Source: Actinomycetes bacterium (GTDB taxonomy: Bacteria > Actinomycetota > Acidimicrobiia > Acidimicrobiales > RAAP-2). From it: a DNA stretch of 16,708 bases. Shown here piece after piece: positions 5,442-14,801 of the stretch (the first letter of the stretch is position 1; every line of letters begins with the position of its first letter). The notes beneath the pieces are model-generated. The model saw only the letters and a program-made list of their open reading frames with translations. It was not told the DNA's origin and searched no databases. The stretch spans positions 1 through 16,708 of the forward strand of contig JAJYWG010000475.1 in assembly GCA_021791615.1 (NCBI GenBank), given 5' to 3'. A program made the translations under genes and the position numbers.

Positions 5442-6311
5442 TCATCTGACCGGACCGACAGCTGGCTGAGCTGGGCCACCGCTGGTGGGGACGAGCGTGT
5501 GGCCTGCAGTAGTCCGCTCACGTGGATGACTCCTACGGACGAATGCGCCGCGGCGCACGCCGAGGGTGCCGTCGGCGAGCGCTGCTGCGAAGTTGAGCGT
5601 CCGGGTGAACCCGTCCTCGATGAGCATCGCCAGGTGGGGTCCGGGGCGTCGGTGGTCGGCGAAGGCGGTGTCGAACCACGAGTTGGCCCAGGTGGTCTCG
5701 TCGACCCATTCGACGGGCTCGAAGCCCGCGCCGAGGATGGCAGCGCGCAGGTCGTCGGCGGTGGTCAGGTGGCTGTCGCTCCCGTCCATCGACCATGGCA
5801 TCGGCCAGGACAACTCTTCACCCGATGTGCGGCAGACCTCCCACACCGCGAAGCGGGCTCCGGGTGCGAGCCGCCGGGCGATCTCGGAGAACCACTCCCG
5901 CTTCGCCTCGATGTTCATCTGGACGTGCATGGTGAACCCGGCGTCGAACGGCTGGTCGGGCTCGAGGTCGGCGATGTCGCCGTGGACGAACCGGACTCGG
6001 TCCGCCATTCCGCAACGATCGGTGAGCTCGGTGGCGGCCTCGACATAGGCCTCGGTGGTGTCCACACCGGTCACCTGGCAGCCGGAGCTGGCGGCGACTT
6101 GGCGGGCCGGACCGCCCAGGCCTGACCCGATGTCGAGGACGGTGTCCGACGGGCGAAGGTCCAAAGTGTCGAGCAGCCGCTCTACGGCCTGGGGTCCGCC
6201 GGCGTGGTACTGGTCGAGGTACTCCAGCACCTCAGGTGTGGTCCGTCCGGTCGAGCCTTCCGACACCAGCCGGTCGATGGTGGCGACCAAGTTCTTCTCG
6301 GCGTAGGTCAT
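5442..6311 (-). CDS. Class I SAM-dependent methyltransferase
   Basis: A 289-residue cytosolic methyltransferase. Motif I is VLDIGSGLGGPAR at residues 58-70. The ribose-binding acidic strand is QVTGVDTTEAYV with Asp 84, and the adenine-side motif is VHGDIADLEP at 109-118. The region MHVQMNIEAKREWFSEIARR with LAPGARFAVWEVC follows. The GGPAR version of motif I is common in methyltransferases that act on small amines or polyketide-like molecules, but no substrate can be assigned. ATG 6311 is supported by GGGAG five bases upstream on the minus strand. It lies 72 bases downstream of the MFS transporter on the same strand, so it may be the second gene of that operon. A decayed copy of its C-terminal half lies at 13945-14337. 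Confidence 0.85.
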   Translation of the reverse strand: MTYAEKNLVATIDRLVSEGSTGRTTPEVLEYLDQYHAGGPQAVERLLDTLDLRPSDTVLDIGSGLGGPARQVAASSGCQVTGVDTTEAYVEAATELTDRCGMADRVRFVHGDIADLEPDQPFDAGFTMHVQMNIEAKREWFSEIARRLAPGARFAVWEVCRTSGEELSWPMPWSMDGSDSHLTTADDLRAAILGAGFEPVEWVDETTWANSWFDTAFADHRRPGPHLAMLIEDGFTRTLNFAAALADGTLGVRRGAFVRRSHPRERTTAGHTLVPTSGGPAQPAVGPVR

Positions 6312-6383: not shown

Positions 6384-7958
6384 TCAAACGACCCGGGCCA
6401 GCTCGGCGACGCCAAGCTCGGCGGAGCCGGTGGCCACGCCGTCGAATATGGCTGTCGGTGGCTGCGACGGCAGGAAGACCACGGCGAGCACCACGCCGAG
6501 AGCGGCCACGCCCCCGGCCACGTAGCAGCCGGCGTAGAGCCCGGCCAGGAAGGCGTTCGTGGCTGCCTGGTGCACCGCCGCACCCAACGCCGGGTGCCCG
6601 AGCTTGCTGGCGCTGCTGGCGACGGCCAGGGCGGCTCCGACCGACTGGTGGGCGGTCGCCGCGTACCGGGCCGAGAGCAAAGGCGGGAGGTGGCGGGCGA
6701 GCCGTGAGCCGTAGATCGATGCGTAGACGCTCCCGATGACCGCGACCCCGAGGGTGCCTCCGAGCAGCCGGGTCGAGTCGTTGACCGCGGAGCCGACCCC
6801 GGACTTGCCGAGCGACACCGCGCCCATGATGGAGTCCGTGGCCGGGGACTGCGCGAGCCCCATCCCCAGCCCGAGCACGACCATCTGCGCAGCGATGAGC
6901 CCGTAGCTCGTGGTGGGAGTGAGGGTGAGCGCCGTCCAGACGTAGAAGATGGTCATGGACGCGAGGCCCGTGGCCACGATCACCTTGGTCCCGACCTTGA
7001 CCGCCAGCGCCGTGCCGAGCACAGAGCCGACCGCCACAGCCATGGCCACGGGGAGCATGTGGACCCCCGCGGAGAGCGGGCTCCAGCCGCGGATGACCTG
7101 CATGTACTGGATGATGAGGAAGATGAACCCGAACAAGGTGAACAACACGATGGTCACCGAGCCGCTCGCCGCGCTGAACCGCAGGTTGGAGAAGATCCGC
7201 ACGTCGAGCATCGGGTGGTCGGTGCGGGACTCGGCCAGCACGAAGCCGCCGAGGAGGATAAGGCCGCCTGCGAGCCCGGCGATGGTGCGTCCGGCGCCCC
7301 AGCCGTAGGTCGGGGCCTCGATGATCGTGTACACGAGGAGCGCCATGAACCCCGTGGACAACAAGAAGCCTGGGACGTCGACTGCCTGGGCGTCGGGGTC
7401 ACGCGAGGGCGGAACGCTGAGAGCGACCAGGCCGATGGCAAGGGCGGCCACCGGTCCCATGGCAAAGAAGATGCTCCCCCACGAGTAGTGCTCGAGGAGG
7501 AAGCCTCCGGCGATGGGACCGACAGCGATCGCTACTCCGGTCGCTGCCCCCCACAAACCGATGGCCAGCGCCCGCTCGTCGCGGCCGGTGAACACGTTGG
7601 AGAGCAACGACAGCGTCGCCGGGAACGTCATGGCCGCGCCCAGGCCCATCACCATCCGCGCCGCGATGAGCGCCCCGGGGCTGGTCGCCAGGCCGCCGAC
7701 GACGCTGGCCGACCCAAAGATGGCGAGGCCGGCGAGCAGCATGCCCTTGCGCCCGAACCGGTCGGACAGGCTCCCAGCGGTGAGCAACAACGCGGCGAAG
7801 ACCAGGTTGTAGGCGTCGACCACCCACTGGAGCTGGCTGGTCGAGGCGTGGAGCTCGCGGACCAGCACCGGGAGCGCCACGTTGACCATGGTCGTCTCCA
7901 GGCTGACCAGGAAGGCGGCGACGAGCAGGGAGGCGAGGATCATGGGCTTGGATCGCAT
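6384..7958 (-). CDS. MFS transporter, DHA2 (14-helix) drug-efflux type
   Basis: A 524-residue inner-membrane proton antiporter-type exporter. Helix 1 carries the DHA2 signature LVSLETTMVNVALPVLVREL, followed by QLQWVVDAYNLVFAALLL. Motif A is GSLSDRFGRKGMLL between helices 2 and 3. Motif C-like Gly/Pro-rich helix 5 is GVAIAVGPIAGGFLLEHYSW. Fourteen hydrophobic segments and about 520 residues fit EmrB/QacA-like multidrug efflux proteins. ATG 7958 is preferred over a start 36 bases upstream because a TTGATT-17-TATTAT promoter ends seven bases before it, making the message leaderless. The -35 box lies on the CTTGAT operator repeats shared with the divergent HxlR gene, so that regulator probably controls it. 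The substrate is unknown. Confidence 0.9.
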   Translation of the reverse strand: MRSKPMILASLLVAAFLVSLETTMVNVALPVLVRELHASTSQLQWVVDAYNLVFAALLLTAGSLSDRFGRKGMLLAGLAIFGSASVVGGLATSPGALIAARMVMGLGAAMTFPATLSLLSNVFTGRDERALAIGLWGAATGVAIAVGPIAGGFLLEHYSWGSIFFAMGPVAALAIGLVALSVPPSRDPDAQAVDVPGFLLSTGFMALLVYTIIEAPTYGWGAGRTIAGLAGGLILLGGFVLAESRTDHPMLDVRIFSNLRFSAASGSVTIVLFTLFGFIFLIIQYMQVIRGWSPLSAGVHMLPVAMAVAVGSVLGTALAVKVGTKVIVATGLASMTIFYVWTALTLTPTTSYGLIAAQMVVLGLGMGLAQSPATDSIMGAVSLGKSGVGSAVNDSTRLLGGTLGVAVIGSVYASIYGSRLARHLPPLLSARYAATAHQSVGAALAVASSASKLGHPALGAAVHQAATNAFLAGLYAGCYVAGGVAALGVVLAVVFLPSQPPTAIFDGVATGSAELGVAELARVV

Positions 7959-7965
7959 GGTTGCA

Positions 7966-7994
7966 ATAATAACGCGTCTTATAGAAAAAATCAA
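7966..7994 (-). promoter_or_regulatory. Leaderless promoter of the MFS transporter
   Basis: On the minus strand TTGATT (7994-7989) is followed by 17 bases and TATTAT (7971-7966), then seven bases to the ATG at 7958. No Shine-Dalgarno is present. The -35 box is part of a CTTGATT repeat. Confidence 0.6.
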
Positions 7995-8016
7995 GTTCTA
8001 ATCCTTGATTATCAAG
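7990..8016. promoter_or_regulatory. Probable HxlR operator: three CTTGAT half-sites
   Basis: ATCAAG at 7990-7995, CTTGAT at 8004-8009 and ATCAAG at 8011-8016. The last two form a 13-base palindrome CTTGAT-T-ATCAAG; the first two form a wider inverted repeat with an 8-base spacer. The repeats lie on the -35 boxes of both divergent promoters. The stretch is AT-rich compared with its surroundings. Confidence 0.6.
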
Positions 8017-8032
8017 TACGGTCGGCTATGCT
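8005..8032 (+). promoter_or_regulatory. Leaderless promoter of the HxlR regulator
   Basis: TTGATT (8005-8010), 16 bases, TATGCT (8027-8032), then six bases to the ATG at 8039. The only purine-rich stretch, GGAAG, is too close to the ATG to act as a ribosome binding site. Confidence 0.55.
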
Positions 8033-8038
8033 GGAAGC

Positions 8039-8674
8039 ATGAAGTCCTACGGACAGCTCTGCTCGGTGGCCAAGGCGCTCGACGTCCTGGGCGACCGCTG
8101 GACGCTGCTCATCCTCCGAGAGATGCTCATCCAGGGACCGTGCCGCTACACCGACCTCGCCAACGGCCTGCCCGGGATCGCCTCCAACCTGCTTTCGGAC
8201 CGGCTCCGGAGCCTCGAGACTTCAGGCCTCGTCTGGCGCGAGTCGGCGCCGCCGCCGGTCGCCACCACGCTGTTCCACCTGACCGAGCGGGGTCGGGACA
8301 CCGAACCCATCGTGGTGGCGCTCGCCCGCTGGGGCACGCCACTCATCGCCGACGCGACACCCGACGACGCGATCCGCGCCCGGTGGGTGCCCTTCTCCGC
8401 GTCAGTCTTCCTGCGCGACCACGACCCGGACGGCCTCCCGACGACGGTCCAGCTGCACACGCCGCTGGGCCCCTCGGTCGTCGAGGTCACCGCAGACGGC
8501 GTCTCGACCCGGGCGGGGACCGTCGACAACCCCGACATCACGCTCGAAGGGATGCCGCAGGTGATCCTTCGGTTCCTCAGCGGCGACCTCACCCTGACCG
8601 AAGCCCAGGAGCAAGGCCTGGCGCTACACGGTGACTCCGCGGTCCTCGACGGCTTCCACCTCGGCGCCGCATGA
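8039..8674 (+). CDS. HxlR-family winged-helix transcriptional regulator
   Basis: A 211-residue DNA-binding protein. Residues 1 to about 100 form the HxlR winged helix: GQLCSVAKALDVLGDRWTLL, ILREMLIQGPCRYTDLANGL, the recognition helix region SNLLSDRLRSLETSGLVWRE, and the wing with TTLFHLTERGRD. The C-terminal ~100 residues are an extra domain (VQLHTPLGPSVVEVTADG, LEGMPQVILRFLSGDLTLTEA) that resembles an SCP2/sterol-carrier-like module. It probably binds a small molecule. It is divergent from the MFS transporter and shares the CTTGAT repeats, so I infer that it represses the transporter and itself. The ligand may be the exported compound. A cysteine sits at position 8, the position of the redox Cys in some HxlR proteins. 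Confidence 0.9.
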   Translation: MKSYGQLCSVAKALDVLGDRWTLLILREMLIQGPCRYTDLANGLPGIASNLLSDRLRSLETSGLVWRESAPPPVATTLFHLTERGRDTEPIVVALARWGTPLIADATPDDAIRARWVPFSASVFLRDHDPDGLPTTVQLHTPLGPSVVEVTADGVSTRAGTVDNPDITLEGMPQVILRFLSGDLTLTEAQEQGLALHGDSAVLDGFHLGAA

Positions 8675-10777: not shown

Positions 10778-11344
10778 TCAGCTCGCGGCGCTCGCGCCCG
10801 GCCACATGAGCTCGACGGCGAGGGCGAGGAAGGCCCCGCGGTCCTCCTCGGCGGGGTCACCGGCGGGGTCCGCCCCTCGGAGCAATGCCATTCCCAGGTA
10901 GAGCGCGTACGCCAGGCGGGCTCGAAGCTGTGGATAGTCGCAGTCGACATCCTCGTAGAGGTTCGCGAGGAAGTCCAGACGGGTGCGGGTGACGCGCCCG
11001 AGCACCTCTGCCACTTTCGGGTTGTTGCCGTGAGCCAAGAGCGTAGCGAGGGTGGTCCCGGTGGCGGCATGGGCGTAGGCACCCGAGCCGAGGGCAGCCA
11101 GGCGCTGTTTGGGATCGGCGATGGCGGCAATGCCCGTGATCACCTCGGTTGTCTCGCGCTGCTCCCACAGCTCGAGGGTGGTTGCTACCAGCTCGGCGCG
11201 ATCAGCGAAGTGCCAGTAGAAGCTTCCCTTGGTCGTGCCGAGCGACCTCGCGAGCGGCTCAACGGCGAGGGCGTCAAGCCCTTCGCTCAACAGTAGGGCC
11301 AACCCGGCTTCGACCCAGTCGCTCCTCGACAGCCCCACGACCAT
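10778..11344 (-). CDS. TetR/AcrR-family transcriptional regulator (divergent from DUF3995 gene)
   Basis: A 188-residue repressor-type protein. The N-terminal HTH is visible as WVEAGLALLLSEGLDALAVE, PLARSLGTTKGSFYWHFADR and AELVATTLELWEQ. The C-terminal two thirds are alpha-helical and would hold the ligand pocket and dimer face (for example RLAYALYLGMALLRGA). ATG 11344 lies inside a 30-base perfect-arm palindrome that also contains the ATG of the divergent DUF3995 gene, with only ten bases between the two starts. A TACGGT box lies five bases upstream of the ATG on this strand, so translation is probably leaderless. I infer that the protein binds this palindrome and controls both genes. A hairpin follows the stop. 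Confidence 0.9.
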   Translation of the reverse strand: MVVGLSRSDWVEAGLALLLSEGLDALAVEPLARSLGTTKGSFYWHFADRAELVATTLELWEQRETTEVITGIAAIADPKQRLAALGSGAYAHAATGTTLATLLAHGNNPKVAEVLGRVTRTRLDFLANLYEDVDCDYPQLRARLAYALYLGMALLRGADPAGDPAEEDRGAFLALAVELMWPGASAAS

Positions 11345-11364
11345 ACGTTACCGTATGGTCGTGG
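11335..11364. promoter_or_regulatory. 13+4+13 palindrome: TetR operator containing both start codons
   Basis: Left arm CCACGACCATACG, spacer TTAC, right arm CGTATGGTCGTGG, with all 13 pairs matching. Each arm contains an ATG pointing outwards (11344-11342 and 11355-11357), so both proteins begin Met-Val-Val. Each strand has a TANNNT box five bases before its ATG (TACGTT 11344-11349 on plus, TACGGT 11355-11350 on minus). No clear -35 boxes are seen. Confidence 0.75.
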
Positions 11365-11897
11365 ATGTTGGCCAAGCAGCCCGGGCGGGCCACAACCGCC
11401 CGGGCAGCGCAGCGGCGCTCGCCGCCTGTGCTGTGGGCCTGGCGTACGCGGGTATCAGCGCGTACTGGGCTTCGGGCGGCACCTGGCTTCTCTCGACGGT
11501 CGGGGCATCGCTCGCGCGACCAGGTGGCCCGGGTCCAGTTGCAGTTGCCGTCGTCGGGGTGTGGGCGGCAGTCGTGGCGAAAGTGCTGGCCGCCCTGGTG
11601 CCGCTCGTCGTGGTTCGAGCCATGTTCGAGGGAGGCTGGGCCCGGCGCGCATCGGTCCTCGCGTGGATAGAGACCATCGTCCTCGTCGTTTACGGCTTCA
11701 CCTGGAGCGCCACCGAGATCCTGATTGAGATCTTCAGCAGCCCTCCCGCCTCTGAGCGGCGGGCCTACGCCTGGCACGCGTACCTGTGGGACCCGTGGTT
11801 CCTCCTCTGGGGCCTCCTCGCCGCTACTGCACTTCTTCGCCGTCGCACCGGCGCCCGCACACGCAGCCACCGGCCGAGAGAACCGGCTGGGATGTGA
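11355..11897 (+). CDS. DUF3995 family membrane protein
   Basis: A 180-residue integral membrane protein with four hydrophobic segments at about 16-38, 62-86, 101-123 and 144-163. Family features are the first helix followed by SAYWASGGTWLLSTVG, the second-helix block VGVWAAVVAKVLAALVPLVV, the YGFTWSATEILIE segment and the end motif WHAYLWDPWFLLWGLLAATAL. The family occurs mostly in actinobacteria and has no known activity. It is divergent from a TetR gene with a shared operator, so it is probably the main target of that regulator. ATG 11355 has no leader and lies in the right arm of the palindrome. The last ~18 residues are basic and likely cytosolic. Confidence 0.8.
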   Translation: MVVDVGQAARAGHNRPGSAAALAACAVGLAYAGISAYWASGGTWLLSTVGASLARPGGPGPVAVAVVGVWAAVVAKVLAALVPLVVVRAMFEGGWARRASVLAWIETIVLVVYGFTWSATEILIEIFSSPPASERRAYAWHAYLWDPWFLLWGLLAATALLRRRTGARTRSHRPREPAGM

Positions 11898-12394: not shown

Positions 12395-12518
12395 GTCGCC
12401 CTGACGCCTTGGAGATTTTGGCGTGCGACACACGGTGGAGAATGAGGGCACCGAGCACGATCACCGCAAGTGGTCATCTGCTCCATGCGCCCCATGCCCT
12501 GTTCCGAGTGCCGGAGAC

Positions 12519-12546
12519 TTGCCAAACCTCCTGTGCCTACTAGTAT
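12519..12546 (+). promoter_or_regulatory. Leaderless promoter and possible operator of the second TetR gene
   Basis: TTGCCA (12519-12524), 16 bases, TAGTAT (12541-12546), then seven bases to GTG 12554. The -10 box lies in an imperfect 18-base palindrome (12533-12550, seven of nine pairs) centred on TACTAGTA, a likely autoregulatory site. Confidence 0.5.
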
Positions 12547-12553
12547 GTACGCT

Positions 12554-13135
12554 GTGAGCGAGACAGCGCAGACCCGGCTGATCGAAAGCGCTCAGGAACT
12601 GCTGTGGGAGCGGGGCTACGCCGCCACGAGCCCCAAGGCGATCCAGCGGCTCGCCGGAGCCGGGCAGGGCAGCATGTACCACCACTTTTCGGGCAAGGCG
12701 GACCTGGCGCTGGCCGCGATGGGGCGCAGCGCCGGGCAGCTTCGCGACAGCGTGGACGAGGTGCTGTCTGGCACAGGCGATCCCTACCAGCGTCTCTGCG
12801 CCTACCTGACGTGTCAGCGCGACGTGCTGCGTGGCTGCCGGATAGGCCGGATGACCGCAGACCCGGAGGTCATGGCCAACCCGGCGCTGCGCGAACCCTT
12901 GCAGGCAACCTTCGCCTGGCTGCAAGGATGCCTGGCCGAAGTGATCGGACAGGCCCAGGGCGCCGGCACGCTCGCCGCACACCTCGACCCGGTGGCTATG
13001 GCCGCGACGATCGCGGCCGTGGTCCAAGGCGGCTACGTCCTCGCCAGGGCCGCCGGGTCCGAAGAGCCGTTCGAGCGGGCGATCGCCGGTACCCTCGCCC
13101 TGCTGGGCGCCGTCCACTTGGGGGAGTCGGAATGA
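12554..13135 (+). CDS. TetR/AcrR-family transcriptional regulator (paired with MBL hydrolase)
   Basis: A 193-residue regulator. The HTH is RLIESAQELLWERGYAATSP, KAIQRLAGAGQGSMYHHFSG, KADLALAAM. The C-terminal domain includes CQRDVLRGCRIGRMTAD, with a Cys-x4-Gly pattern seen in the YxaF/LmrA-like group of TetR proteins, and a final helix VVQGGYVLARAAGS typical of that group. GTG 12554 is preferred over ATG 12545 because a promoter -10 box covers the ATG, leaving a leaderless message, and because MSETAQTRLIESA is the natural family beginning. Its stop overlaps the start of the next gene (ATGA, 13132-13135), so regulator and MBL hydrolase are translationally coupled. Autoregulation is likely. 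Confidence 0.88.
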   Translation: MSETAQTRLIESAQELLWERGYAATSPKAIQRLAGAGQGSMYHHFSGKADLALAAMGRSAGQLRDSVDEVLSGTGDPYQRLCAYLTCQRDVLRGCRIGRMTADPEVMANPALREPLQATFAWLQGCLAEVIGQAQGAGTLAAHLDPVAMAATIAAVVQGGYVLARAAGSEEPFERAIAGTLALLGAVHLGESE

Positions 13136-13926
13136 CCTCGGTCCTGCTGATCGGCGGCCCGACCGCGCTCATCGAATGGGGGGGTCTGAGGCTGTTAACC
13201 GATCCCACCTTCAGCGAGGTCGGCGTGCACGAAAGCGCACCTGGGCGACCGTTGACCAAGCTCGAACCGCCGGCACTGCTCGCCGACCAGGTGCTGCCGG
13301 TCGACGCGGTGCTGCTCTCCCACGATCAGCACGCCGACAACCTCGACCCGGCCGGCCGGCAGATGCTGGCCTCGATCCCCGTTGTGCTCACCACGCCCGA
13401 GGCTGCCCTACGGCTCGGCGGCAACGCCCGTGCGCTTCGCACCTGGCAGGACGCCCAGCTGTCAGGCCCCGAAGGTCAGCCAATCACGATCACGGCCGTC
13501 CCGGCCCGTCACGGTCCGCCAGGCTGCGAACCGCTCACCGGTACCGTCACCGGGTTCGTGCTCAGCGCGCCGGACCTGCCCACCGTCTACATCAGCGGAG
13601 ACAACGACTCCCTCGACGCCGTCACCCAGGTCGCACAACGCTTTGGTTCTGTGGAGATCGCCCTGCTCTTCGCGGGCGCCGCCCGAACCAGCCTCTTCGA
13701 CGGCGCTGCGTTGACTTTCACCAGCGCTGACGCCGCCCGGGCCGCGGTGATCCTCGGCGCCCGCCGTGTCGTCGCCCTCCACGTACGCGGATGGGCGCAT
13801 TTCACCGAAGGACCCGACATGATCAGCAGCGCATTCGCCCAAGCGGGGATCGCCGACAAGCTCACCAACCCCGTCCCAGGCGAGACGACGCACTGGCCCG
13901 ACGACCCGAAGGTCCGGTCTGCATAG
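13132..13926 (+). CDS. UlaG-like MBL-fold metal-dependent hydrolase
   Basis: A 264-residue metallo-beta-lactamase-fold protein of the UlaG/NAPE-PLD-like branch: N-terminal VLLIGGPTALIEWGGLRLLT-D-P, then the metal loop LLSHDQHADNLDPAGR (His 64, His 67, Asp 69), His 127 in VPARHGP, Asp 157 in VYISGDND and His 217/223 in ALHVRGWAHF. The loop is HDQHADN where related proteins often have HDHHADN, so one potential ligand is Gln 66. Whether two metals bind is therefore open. Such enzymes hydrolyse phosphoester, lactone or amide bonds in small molecules; the substrate is not predictable. It is coupled to the TetR gene upstream by a four-base overlap. Confidence 0.85.
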   Translation: MTSVLLIGGPTALIEWGGLRLLTDPTFSEVGVHESAPGRPLTKLEPPALLADQVLPVDAVLLSHDQHADNLDPAGRQMLASIPVVLTTPEAALRLGGNARALRTWQDAQLSGPEGQPITITAVPARHGPPGCEPLTGTVTGFVLSAPDLPTVYISGDNDSLDAVTQVAQRFGSVEIALLFAGAARTSLFDGAALTFTSADAARAAVILGARRVVALHVRGWAHFTEGPDMISSAFAQAGIADKLTNPVPGETTHWPDDPKVRSA

Positions 13927-13944
13927 CGACGTCGGAGGAGCGCA

Positions 13945-14337
13945 TCAATCGCTGGGTCGGACGAACGCGCCGGGGCGTACTGCGAGGGTGCCGCCGGCGA
14001 GCGCTGCTGCGAAAATTGAGTTTGCGGGTGTACCCGTCATCGATGAGCATCGCCAGGTGGGCTCTGGGGTGTAGGTGGTCGGCGAAGGTGGTGTCGAACC
14101 ATGAGATGGCCCAGGCCGTTTCGTCGATCCATTCGACGGCTCGAAGCCCGCGCCGAGGATGGCGTCGGCCAGGGCGTCGGAGGTGGCCAGGTGGCTGTCG
14201 CTTCCGTCTATCCACCATGGAATAGGCCGCGACGGTTCTGCGTCCGACGGTCGGCAGACCTCCCACACGGCGAAATGGGCTCCGGGTGCGAGCCGCTGTG
14301 CGATCTCGGCGAACCACTCCCGTTTCGCCTGGATGAA
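13945..14337 (-). pseudogene. Decayed copy of the methyltransferase C-terminal half
   Basis: On the minus strand, IQAKREWFAEIAQRLAPGAH, FAVWEVCRPSD and WWIDGSDSHLATSDALADAI match residues ~134-200 of the methyltransferase at 5442-6311. One base is missing near 14139, after which VEWIDETAWAISWFDTTFAD and HLAMLIDDGYTRKLNF continue in another frame. One extra base near 14012 restores the first frame (AAALAGGTLAVRPGAFVR). DNA identity to the intact gene is roughly 80% by eye over ~390 bases. The SAM-binding half is absent, so this is non-functional. It sits in the same orientation relative to the window as the intact copy. Confidence 0.85.
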
Positions 14338-14444
14338 CCGGCTCTCTCGCAGAGTCAGGTACCTCTACCCGTTGAATGGCACAGCCAGAGCGTGTTCGAG
14401 CTGCGCTCTCCGGGCAGGCGATCCCATGTGGGACACTTTCCACC

Positions 14445-14801
14445 ATGGGCACTCCTGAACCAACCGGGTTCGCCAACGAATGGATCGCAAACTGGAACTC
14501 CCGCGACGTCGAGGCCGTCCTATCCCAATATGCAGACGATGTCGTGTTTAGCTCCCCGACCGCCTTACGGGTCGTCCCAGCCAGCGATGGCACCGTCCAA
14601 GGCAAAGACGCCCTCCGTAACTACTGGACTCTCGCCCTCGAAGCGAACCCCGACCTTCACTTCGAGCTGGTAGGCACCTACGCCGGAATCGACACGATCG
14701 TGATGCACTACCGGAATCAGCAGGGCGCCCTGGTCAACGAGGTGGTGACGTTCCGAGGCGGGTTGATCGTGGCCGGACACGCGACGCACCTCCAGAGCTG
14801 A
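14445..14801 (+). CDS. SnoaL-like (NTF2-fold) polyketide-cyclase-type protein
   Basis: A 118-residue single-domain protein of the NTF2-like cone fold. Features are FANEWIANWNSRDVEAVLSQ and YADDVVFSSPTA, the GTVQGKDALRNYWTLALEAN helix and the strands LHFELVGTYAGIDTIVMHYR, then LVNEVVTFRGGLIVAGHATH. The family includes SnoaL cyclases, isomerases and many proteins of unknown role that bind small hydrophobic molecules. ATG 14445 is preferred by homology. No strong Shine-Dalgarno is present; GACACT at 14432-14437 lies seven bases upstream and could be a -10 box for a leaderless message. It is next to the methyltransferase remnant and UlaG-like gene, but there is no evidence for a shared pathway. 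Confidence 0.8.
   Translation: MGTPEPTGFANEWIANWNSRDVEAVLSQYADDVVFSSPTALRVVPASDGTVQGKDALRNYWTLALEANPDLHFELVGTYAGIDTIVMHYRNQQGALVNEVVTFRGGLIVAGHATHLQS

Follow-up and report, generated by a model that had tools for sequence, protein, structure and literature searches.

The perfect inverted repeat between the divergent tetR and DUF3995 genes of the window (the whole 16,708-nucleotide stretch of contig JAJYWG010000475.1 that was analysed) is probably the operator of a local TetR autorepressor and, at the same time, the shared promoter of the two genes, both of which would be leaderless. In the proposed mechanism, the TA at the symmetry centre of the operator core would give each strand a TANNNT -10 box that overlaps the box of the other strand, and from these boxes RNA polymerase would start either way, at or beside GTG 11338 for tetR and GTG 11361 for the DUF3995 gene, and two leaderless mRNAs would result. 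A TetR dimer bound to 11341-11358 would sit over the two -10 boxes and abut both start sites, silencing both genes until a ligand freed the operator of TetR. If true, this would be a minimal natural three-way switch in which the symmetry of the promoter and the symmetry of the repressor are one symmetry.

The repeat occupies 11335-11364 (30 bp, no strand), as an earlier sequence-only reading had claimed. Its arms, CCACGACCATACG (11335-11347) and CGTATGGTCGTGG (11352-11364), are 13 bases each and 100% complementary, with the spacer TTAC between them. Each arm was also said to contain the ATG of one gene, and the ORF positions bore this out: the ATG of the TetR ORF lies at 11344-11342 (- strand) and that of the DUF3995 ORF at 11355-11357 (+ strand), with ten bases between them. 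Read from these ATGs, both ORFs begin ATG GTC GTG; because the inverted repeat takes in the first codons, the identical Met-Val-Val starts are not an independent coincidence. The 18-base core at 11341-11358 (no strand; CCATACGTTACCGTATGG on the + strand and CCATACGGTAACGTATGG on the - strand) has the form CCATAC-N6-GTATGG. It recurs near the TetR starts of relatives and is near-identical in the close relative L001, where the arms are 9 bases long (CCATACGGTACCGTATGG), so the outer bases of the palindrome, outside the core, are not conserved in L001.

The recurrence of the core was quantified by aligning TetR homologues and keeping 80 loci of 515 relatives (one-genome-per-species contigs). The region from -130 to +10 of the TetR start was scanned, and 140-bp windows elsewhere in the same loci served as controls. 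The window core was found exactly in 25 of the 80 loci and with at most one mismatch in 48, while 5 of 5546 control windows contained it at either setting. The relaxed pattern CCRTACNNNNNNGTAYGG (CCRTAC-N6-GTAYGG), which the window core matches exactly and which was chosen after the loci had been seen, was exact in 47/80 loci versus 5/5546 control windows (Fisher p ~1e-88, with loci that are not phylogenetically independent). By genus or MAG label, 34 of 58 carried the exact relaxed pattern, and the loci with exact sites include, according to record titles, Actinobacteria, Alphaproteobacteria and Myxococcota. Two or three operators were present in 43/80 loci and one in 16/80, and an operator with at most one mismatch was absent from 21/80; a spacing of 22-23 bp between operators was seen in 16 of the 43 loci with two or three. 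A repeat as long as that of the window (perfect, arms of at least 13 bases, spacer of at most 10) did turn up in 2 of 200 dinucleotide shuffles of the window, which leaves some room for a chance palindrome in GC-rich divergent coding DNA, but dozens of loci have the core at this same position, and chance, whose probability we put close to nil, was rejected on this conservation.

With the core recurring at the TetR starts of relatives, the comparison supported the claim that the palindrome is TetR's own operator, and the palindrome core is a well supported candidate for that operator. Palindrome and Met-Val-Val starts had been put forward together for comparison across homologous loci; the 18-base core proved to be conserved, whereas the outer arm bases, compared in L001, and the Met-Val-Val starts did not. 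In eight whole genomes, exact sites were found in seven, at the tetR locus each time, with one extra site in G890; the whole-genome pattern search gave zero exact sites in G893. As a control the pattern was reversed; it then matched as often as the real pattern in G001 (once) and G891 (twice), and nowhere in the other six genomes. Because the exact sites in whole genomes sit at the tetR locus, the operator looks like a locally acting one with no regulon. The 14-base operator centre, ATACGGTACCGTAT, had no match in the literature searched, and among the matches listed for the half-site strings there was, by title, no paper on a TetR operator. With this pattern, an operator sequence can be put to the test in a TetR group of Actinobacteria, Alphaproteobacteria and Myxococcota.

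TANNNT motifs were then located in the palindrome. The boxes reported earlier, five bases before each ATG, were found: TACGTT (11344-11349, + strand) before ATG 11355 and TACGGT (11350-11355, - strand) before ATG 11344. A second pair had been missed, TACCGT for the DUF3995 gene (11349-11354, + strand) and TAACGT for tetR (11345-11350, - strand). These predicted -10 boxes occupy operator positions 9-14, six bases before GTG 11361-11363 (+) and GTG 11338-11336 (-), respectively; in sequence terms they overlap and have the central TA step in common. With TA as the two bases at the centre of the core, each strand reads TANNGT at positions 9-14, which gives overlapping -10 boxes. The centre TA was present in 28/43 proximal versus 5/43 distal operators of the loci with two or more. 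TANNNT is rare in the whole GC-rich window, with 18 occurrences on the + strand and 12 on the - strand; on each strand, three of these start within the palindrome. A -35 element was not identified. At the sequence level, -10-like elements overlap on opposite strands, as in bidirectional promoters, and they support the suggestion that the two putative divergent promoters overlap.

The distance from box to start codon was determined in the 53 of 82 sequences that have an operator (at most one mismatch) at -60 to +9, the rest being left out; the 53 include the window, L001 and L088. TANNNT was found at positions 9-14 in 35 of the 53, and an in-frame TetR start codon followed 5-8 bases on in 31 of these 35 (6 or 7 bases in 30, 8 in one), the exceptions being L035, L053, L056 and L076. 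Without the box at positions 9-14, an in-frame start codon followed at this distance in 4/18 (box versus no box, Fisher p ~3e-6). Codon 3 of the window TetR ORF was examined in 52 of 120 listed homologues (645 found), in which the start motif was matched and which begin at least three residues before the motif. All 52 of these homologues, annotated from upstream, have V or M at this codon, and V encoded by GTG was seen only in homologues read at the DNA level. In 13 homologues with a frame running further upstream, codon 3 was V or M in 13/13, and codon 1 was M in 5, T in 5 (P0006, P0114, P0115, P0117 and P0118) and another residue in 3. The comparison puts the TetR start at codon 3, which speaks against the palindrome ATGs as start codons and revises the start-codon assignment: tetR likely starts at GTG 11338 (-). 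Symmetry suggests GTG 11361 (+) as the start of the DUF3995 gene, as do 6 of 10 close relatives, which have V or M at codon 3 or are annotated to start there; P0122-P0125 begin MNPN, and their layout may therefore differ.

The sequence-only reading had placed the starts at ATGs 11344 and 11355, with the boxes TACGGT and TACGTT and an operator overlapping the N-terminal codons. The ATGs and boxes do exist with their five-base spacing, an in-frame ATG stands at operator position 15 in L001, L088 and others, and the database form of the DUF3995 protein, P0121, begins at the ATG. However, many relatives have the half-site GTACGG, with no ATG, and their TetR start codon still follows the box by 6-7 bases; L005 and L019 do have an operator ATG, but not in frame; and the 13 homologues running further upstream have M at codon 1 in 5 cases only and V or M at codon 3 in all. 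For a -10 box, a gap of five bases is also on the short side. We consider these ATG starts unlikely. Conservation of the Met-Val-Val starts did not hold either, since the DUF3995 protein of L001 reads MGV and P0006 has T for the palindrome's Met. The idea that operator and protein N-termini are constrained together was left without support: GTG starts at 11338 and 11361 leave the operator core at 11341-11358 wholly non-coding, so no joint constraint is necessary.

Under the preferred GTG starts, both mRNAs would be leaderless. The -10 box begins 12 bases before each GTG, and the 20 bases preceding each window ATG contain nothing that resembles a Shine-Dalgarno motif. A TANNNT box about 12 bases upstream with no Shine-Dalgarno sequence marks leaderless genes of this type in Actinobacteria, according to sections of PMC3160421. 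In G001 (260,741 bases), TANNNT lay 6-7 bases before 7/366 candidate starts versus 1/1173 internal codons, a thin count that is consistent with leaderless starts in the lineage. The earlier suggestion of leaderless messages stands in that a leaderless-type box spacing was found at the TetR start, but this spacing refers to the GTG and not to the ATG.

Conventional leadered transcripts from a TetR operator, with the DUF3995 start further upstream, for example at TTG 11229, are far less probable. The DUF3995 frame extends upstream without a stop as far as 11229, and a purine-rich, Shine-Dalgarno-like run, recognised by eye, precedes the DUF3995 start in 7 of the 9 two-operator relatives with an adjacent DUF3995 gene (it is absent in L006 and distant in L004). 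Against this, such a motif is lacking in the 20 bases before the window ATGs, an upstream DUF3995 start would fall inside the opposite gene, and the TetR box-to-start spacing is conserved. The inverted repeat is perfect, as might also be expected of an RNA hairpin (an attenuator or terminator) with no protein-binding site; however, with the proposed starts each predicted mRNA has one arm only, and conservation across phyla falls on the 18-bp core close to TetR starts, as would be the case for an operator. The hairpin was rejected because of the single arm per predicted mRNA, and we regard it as barely credible.

The TetR-family repressor gene occupies 10778-11338 (- strand) with the GTG start, which gives 186 aa; the alternative ATG 11344 would give 188 aa. 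The database copy of the protein, P0001, is the 186-aa form. An N-terminal helix-turn-helix domain was detected with TetR_N (PF00440; 37.4 bits, cut-off 24), and the segment TKGSFYWHF is common to the window TetR and its close relatives. The structural model (mean pLDDT 81.6) has nine helices and the all-helical TetR fold. As helix 1 of the model does not begin until residue 7, starting two codons later would leave the predicted structure intact. The leading PDB matches of the model, 2np5_A (TM 0.79) among them, are TetR-type regulators. A TetR search at E <= 1e-50 found G001 alone among 390 members of its class and one locus, L088, among 399 members of the class of G488; L088 has two operators with one mismatch each and no DUF3995 match. 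No relative was found in viral contigs. A second TetR gene of the window lies at 12470-13135 (TetR_N and TetR_C_13), with no core match of up to three mismatches nearby.

The DUF3995 membrane-protein gene would run from 11361 to 11897 (+ strand; 178 aa from the GTG), the alternative ATG 11355 giving the 180 aa of P0121. The protein belongs to DUF3995 (PF13160; 56.1 bits, cut-off 34.3), and its model shows four helices at low confidence (pLDDT 62.9). A GC-rich imperfect inverted repeat at 11376-11408, in the first DUF3995 codons (13-base arms, 92%, 7-base loop), could form an mRNA fold.

The divergent partners of the related tetR genes were also investigated. A profile search, in which seven of the 17 positive loci were themselves seeds of the profile and the weakest match had E 3e-4, found a divergent DUF3995 domain within 1.5 kb in 17/80 loci; no DUF3995 partner was detected in 63/80. 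The domain lay within 130 bp of the TetR start in 10 loci (L001, L004-L006, L008-L012 and L023) and 388-594 bp from tetR in 7 of the 17. Pfam assigned 7 of 10 hand-picked divergent proteins to DUF3995 and 2 to DUF2867, and found no family in one. With the same operator, L007 and L003 have a DUF2867 partner in place of DUF3995, from which the regulator seems to have changed partners. In L002, L029, L040, L071 and L072 the divergent partner has a DUF3995 or DUF3995-like domain after an N-terminal extension, confirmed by Pfam in L002 and L029 and matched by the profile in L040, L071 and L072. When 147 relatives and 395 class members of G001 were searched for DUF3995, only G001 and L082 gave a match, and L082 had no TetR relative in the 3.2 kb around; plasmids gave no DUF3995 match. 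These data support the view that the partner varies while DUF3995 recurs, and that the TetR/DUF3995 pair is a recurrent module, which would tie DUF3995 to a dedicated regulator in several genera. In the literature searched, neither DUF3995, alone or with TetR, nor DUF2867 with TetR was found.

The best match and sole close relative among the 80 loci was L001, an Actinomycetes MAG whose TetR has 75% identity to that of the window. It has a divergent DUF3995 gene, the same ten-base gap from ATG to ATG and, as in the window, a single operator. In the window and L001 no leader is predicted, and both predicted starts abut the one operator. Nine of the 10 loci with DUF3995 adjoining tetR have two operators, L001 being the one with a single operator; the switch had been called unusually compact, and judged by these sequences its compaction is indeed unusual for loci with DUF3995 next to tetR. 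The single-operator DUF3995 layout is represented by DNA from two loci, the window and L001, whereas having just one operator is in itself no rarity, with 16 such cases among the 80 loci. The two-operator loci L005 (Lentzea), L006 (Longispora) and L012 (Actinokineospora) resemble the window in their related TetR, operator pattern and partner family, and in a -10 box followed 6-7 bases later by the TetR start. Unlike the window, with its one operator and no leader, they have two operators 22-23 bp apart and a DUF3995 start beyond the second. The simplest account would be that the distal operator and the leader were lost from an ancestor. We give an even chance to the fuller version, in which the 18-bp palindrome would be operator and both -10 boxes at once, leftward polymerase, rightward polymerase and TetR would compete for it, and a two-operator ancestor would have lost its second operator and the leader of the partner gene.

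The mRNAs of E. coli acrA/acrR have leaders, unlike those predicted for the window. This locus likewise has a TetR-family autorepressor and a partner gene on a bidirectional promoter, and differs in its activation by SoxS/MarA and its efflux partner, as described in part of PMC12825309. Divergent start sites were 10-23 bp apart in the five promoters studied there, and 23 bp is predicted for the window (11338 to 11361). Bidirectional promoters with symmetric -10 elements, with TetR-family autorepressors acting on them, are known from portions of PMC12825309 and PMC5712553. CalR3/calT of Streptomyces chartreusis, in the portion of PMC5712553 consulted, resembles the proposal for the window in having a divergent TetR autorepressor on a bidirectional promoter; one binding site extends over the two -10 regions and a start site, and a second overlaps the start codon of the partner. 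It differs in its 156-bp intergenic region, two binding sites, exporter-like partner, other operator sequence and a calR3 transcript start 104 bp before the start codon (same portion of PMC5712553). Divergent leaderless regulator-target pairs are likewise known: M. tuberculosis prpD and Rv1129c, a divergent gene and regulator, are both leaderless with TANNNT promoters, according to excerpts of PMC3898074, in which ATG and GTG starts are similarly frequent among leaderless genes of this species. Gene and regulator are other than those of the window, and the same excerpts describe no shared palindrome (PMC3898074). Against the literature searched, the operator core and its pairing with DUF3995 appear new, while symmetric bidirectional promoters, TetR autorepressors and leaderless pairs are known.

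Elsewhere in the window, an MFS exporter ORF (-) and an HxlR-type regulator ORF (+) at 6384-8674 are divergent and 44 bases apart, with an AT-rich gap. A methyltransferase gene lies at 5442-6311, and a similar, frame-broken copy was recognised by eye at 13862-14605. The overlapping frames at 105-846 appear by eye to be a transposase/integrase remnant.
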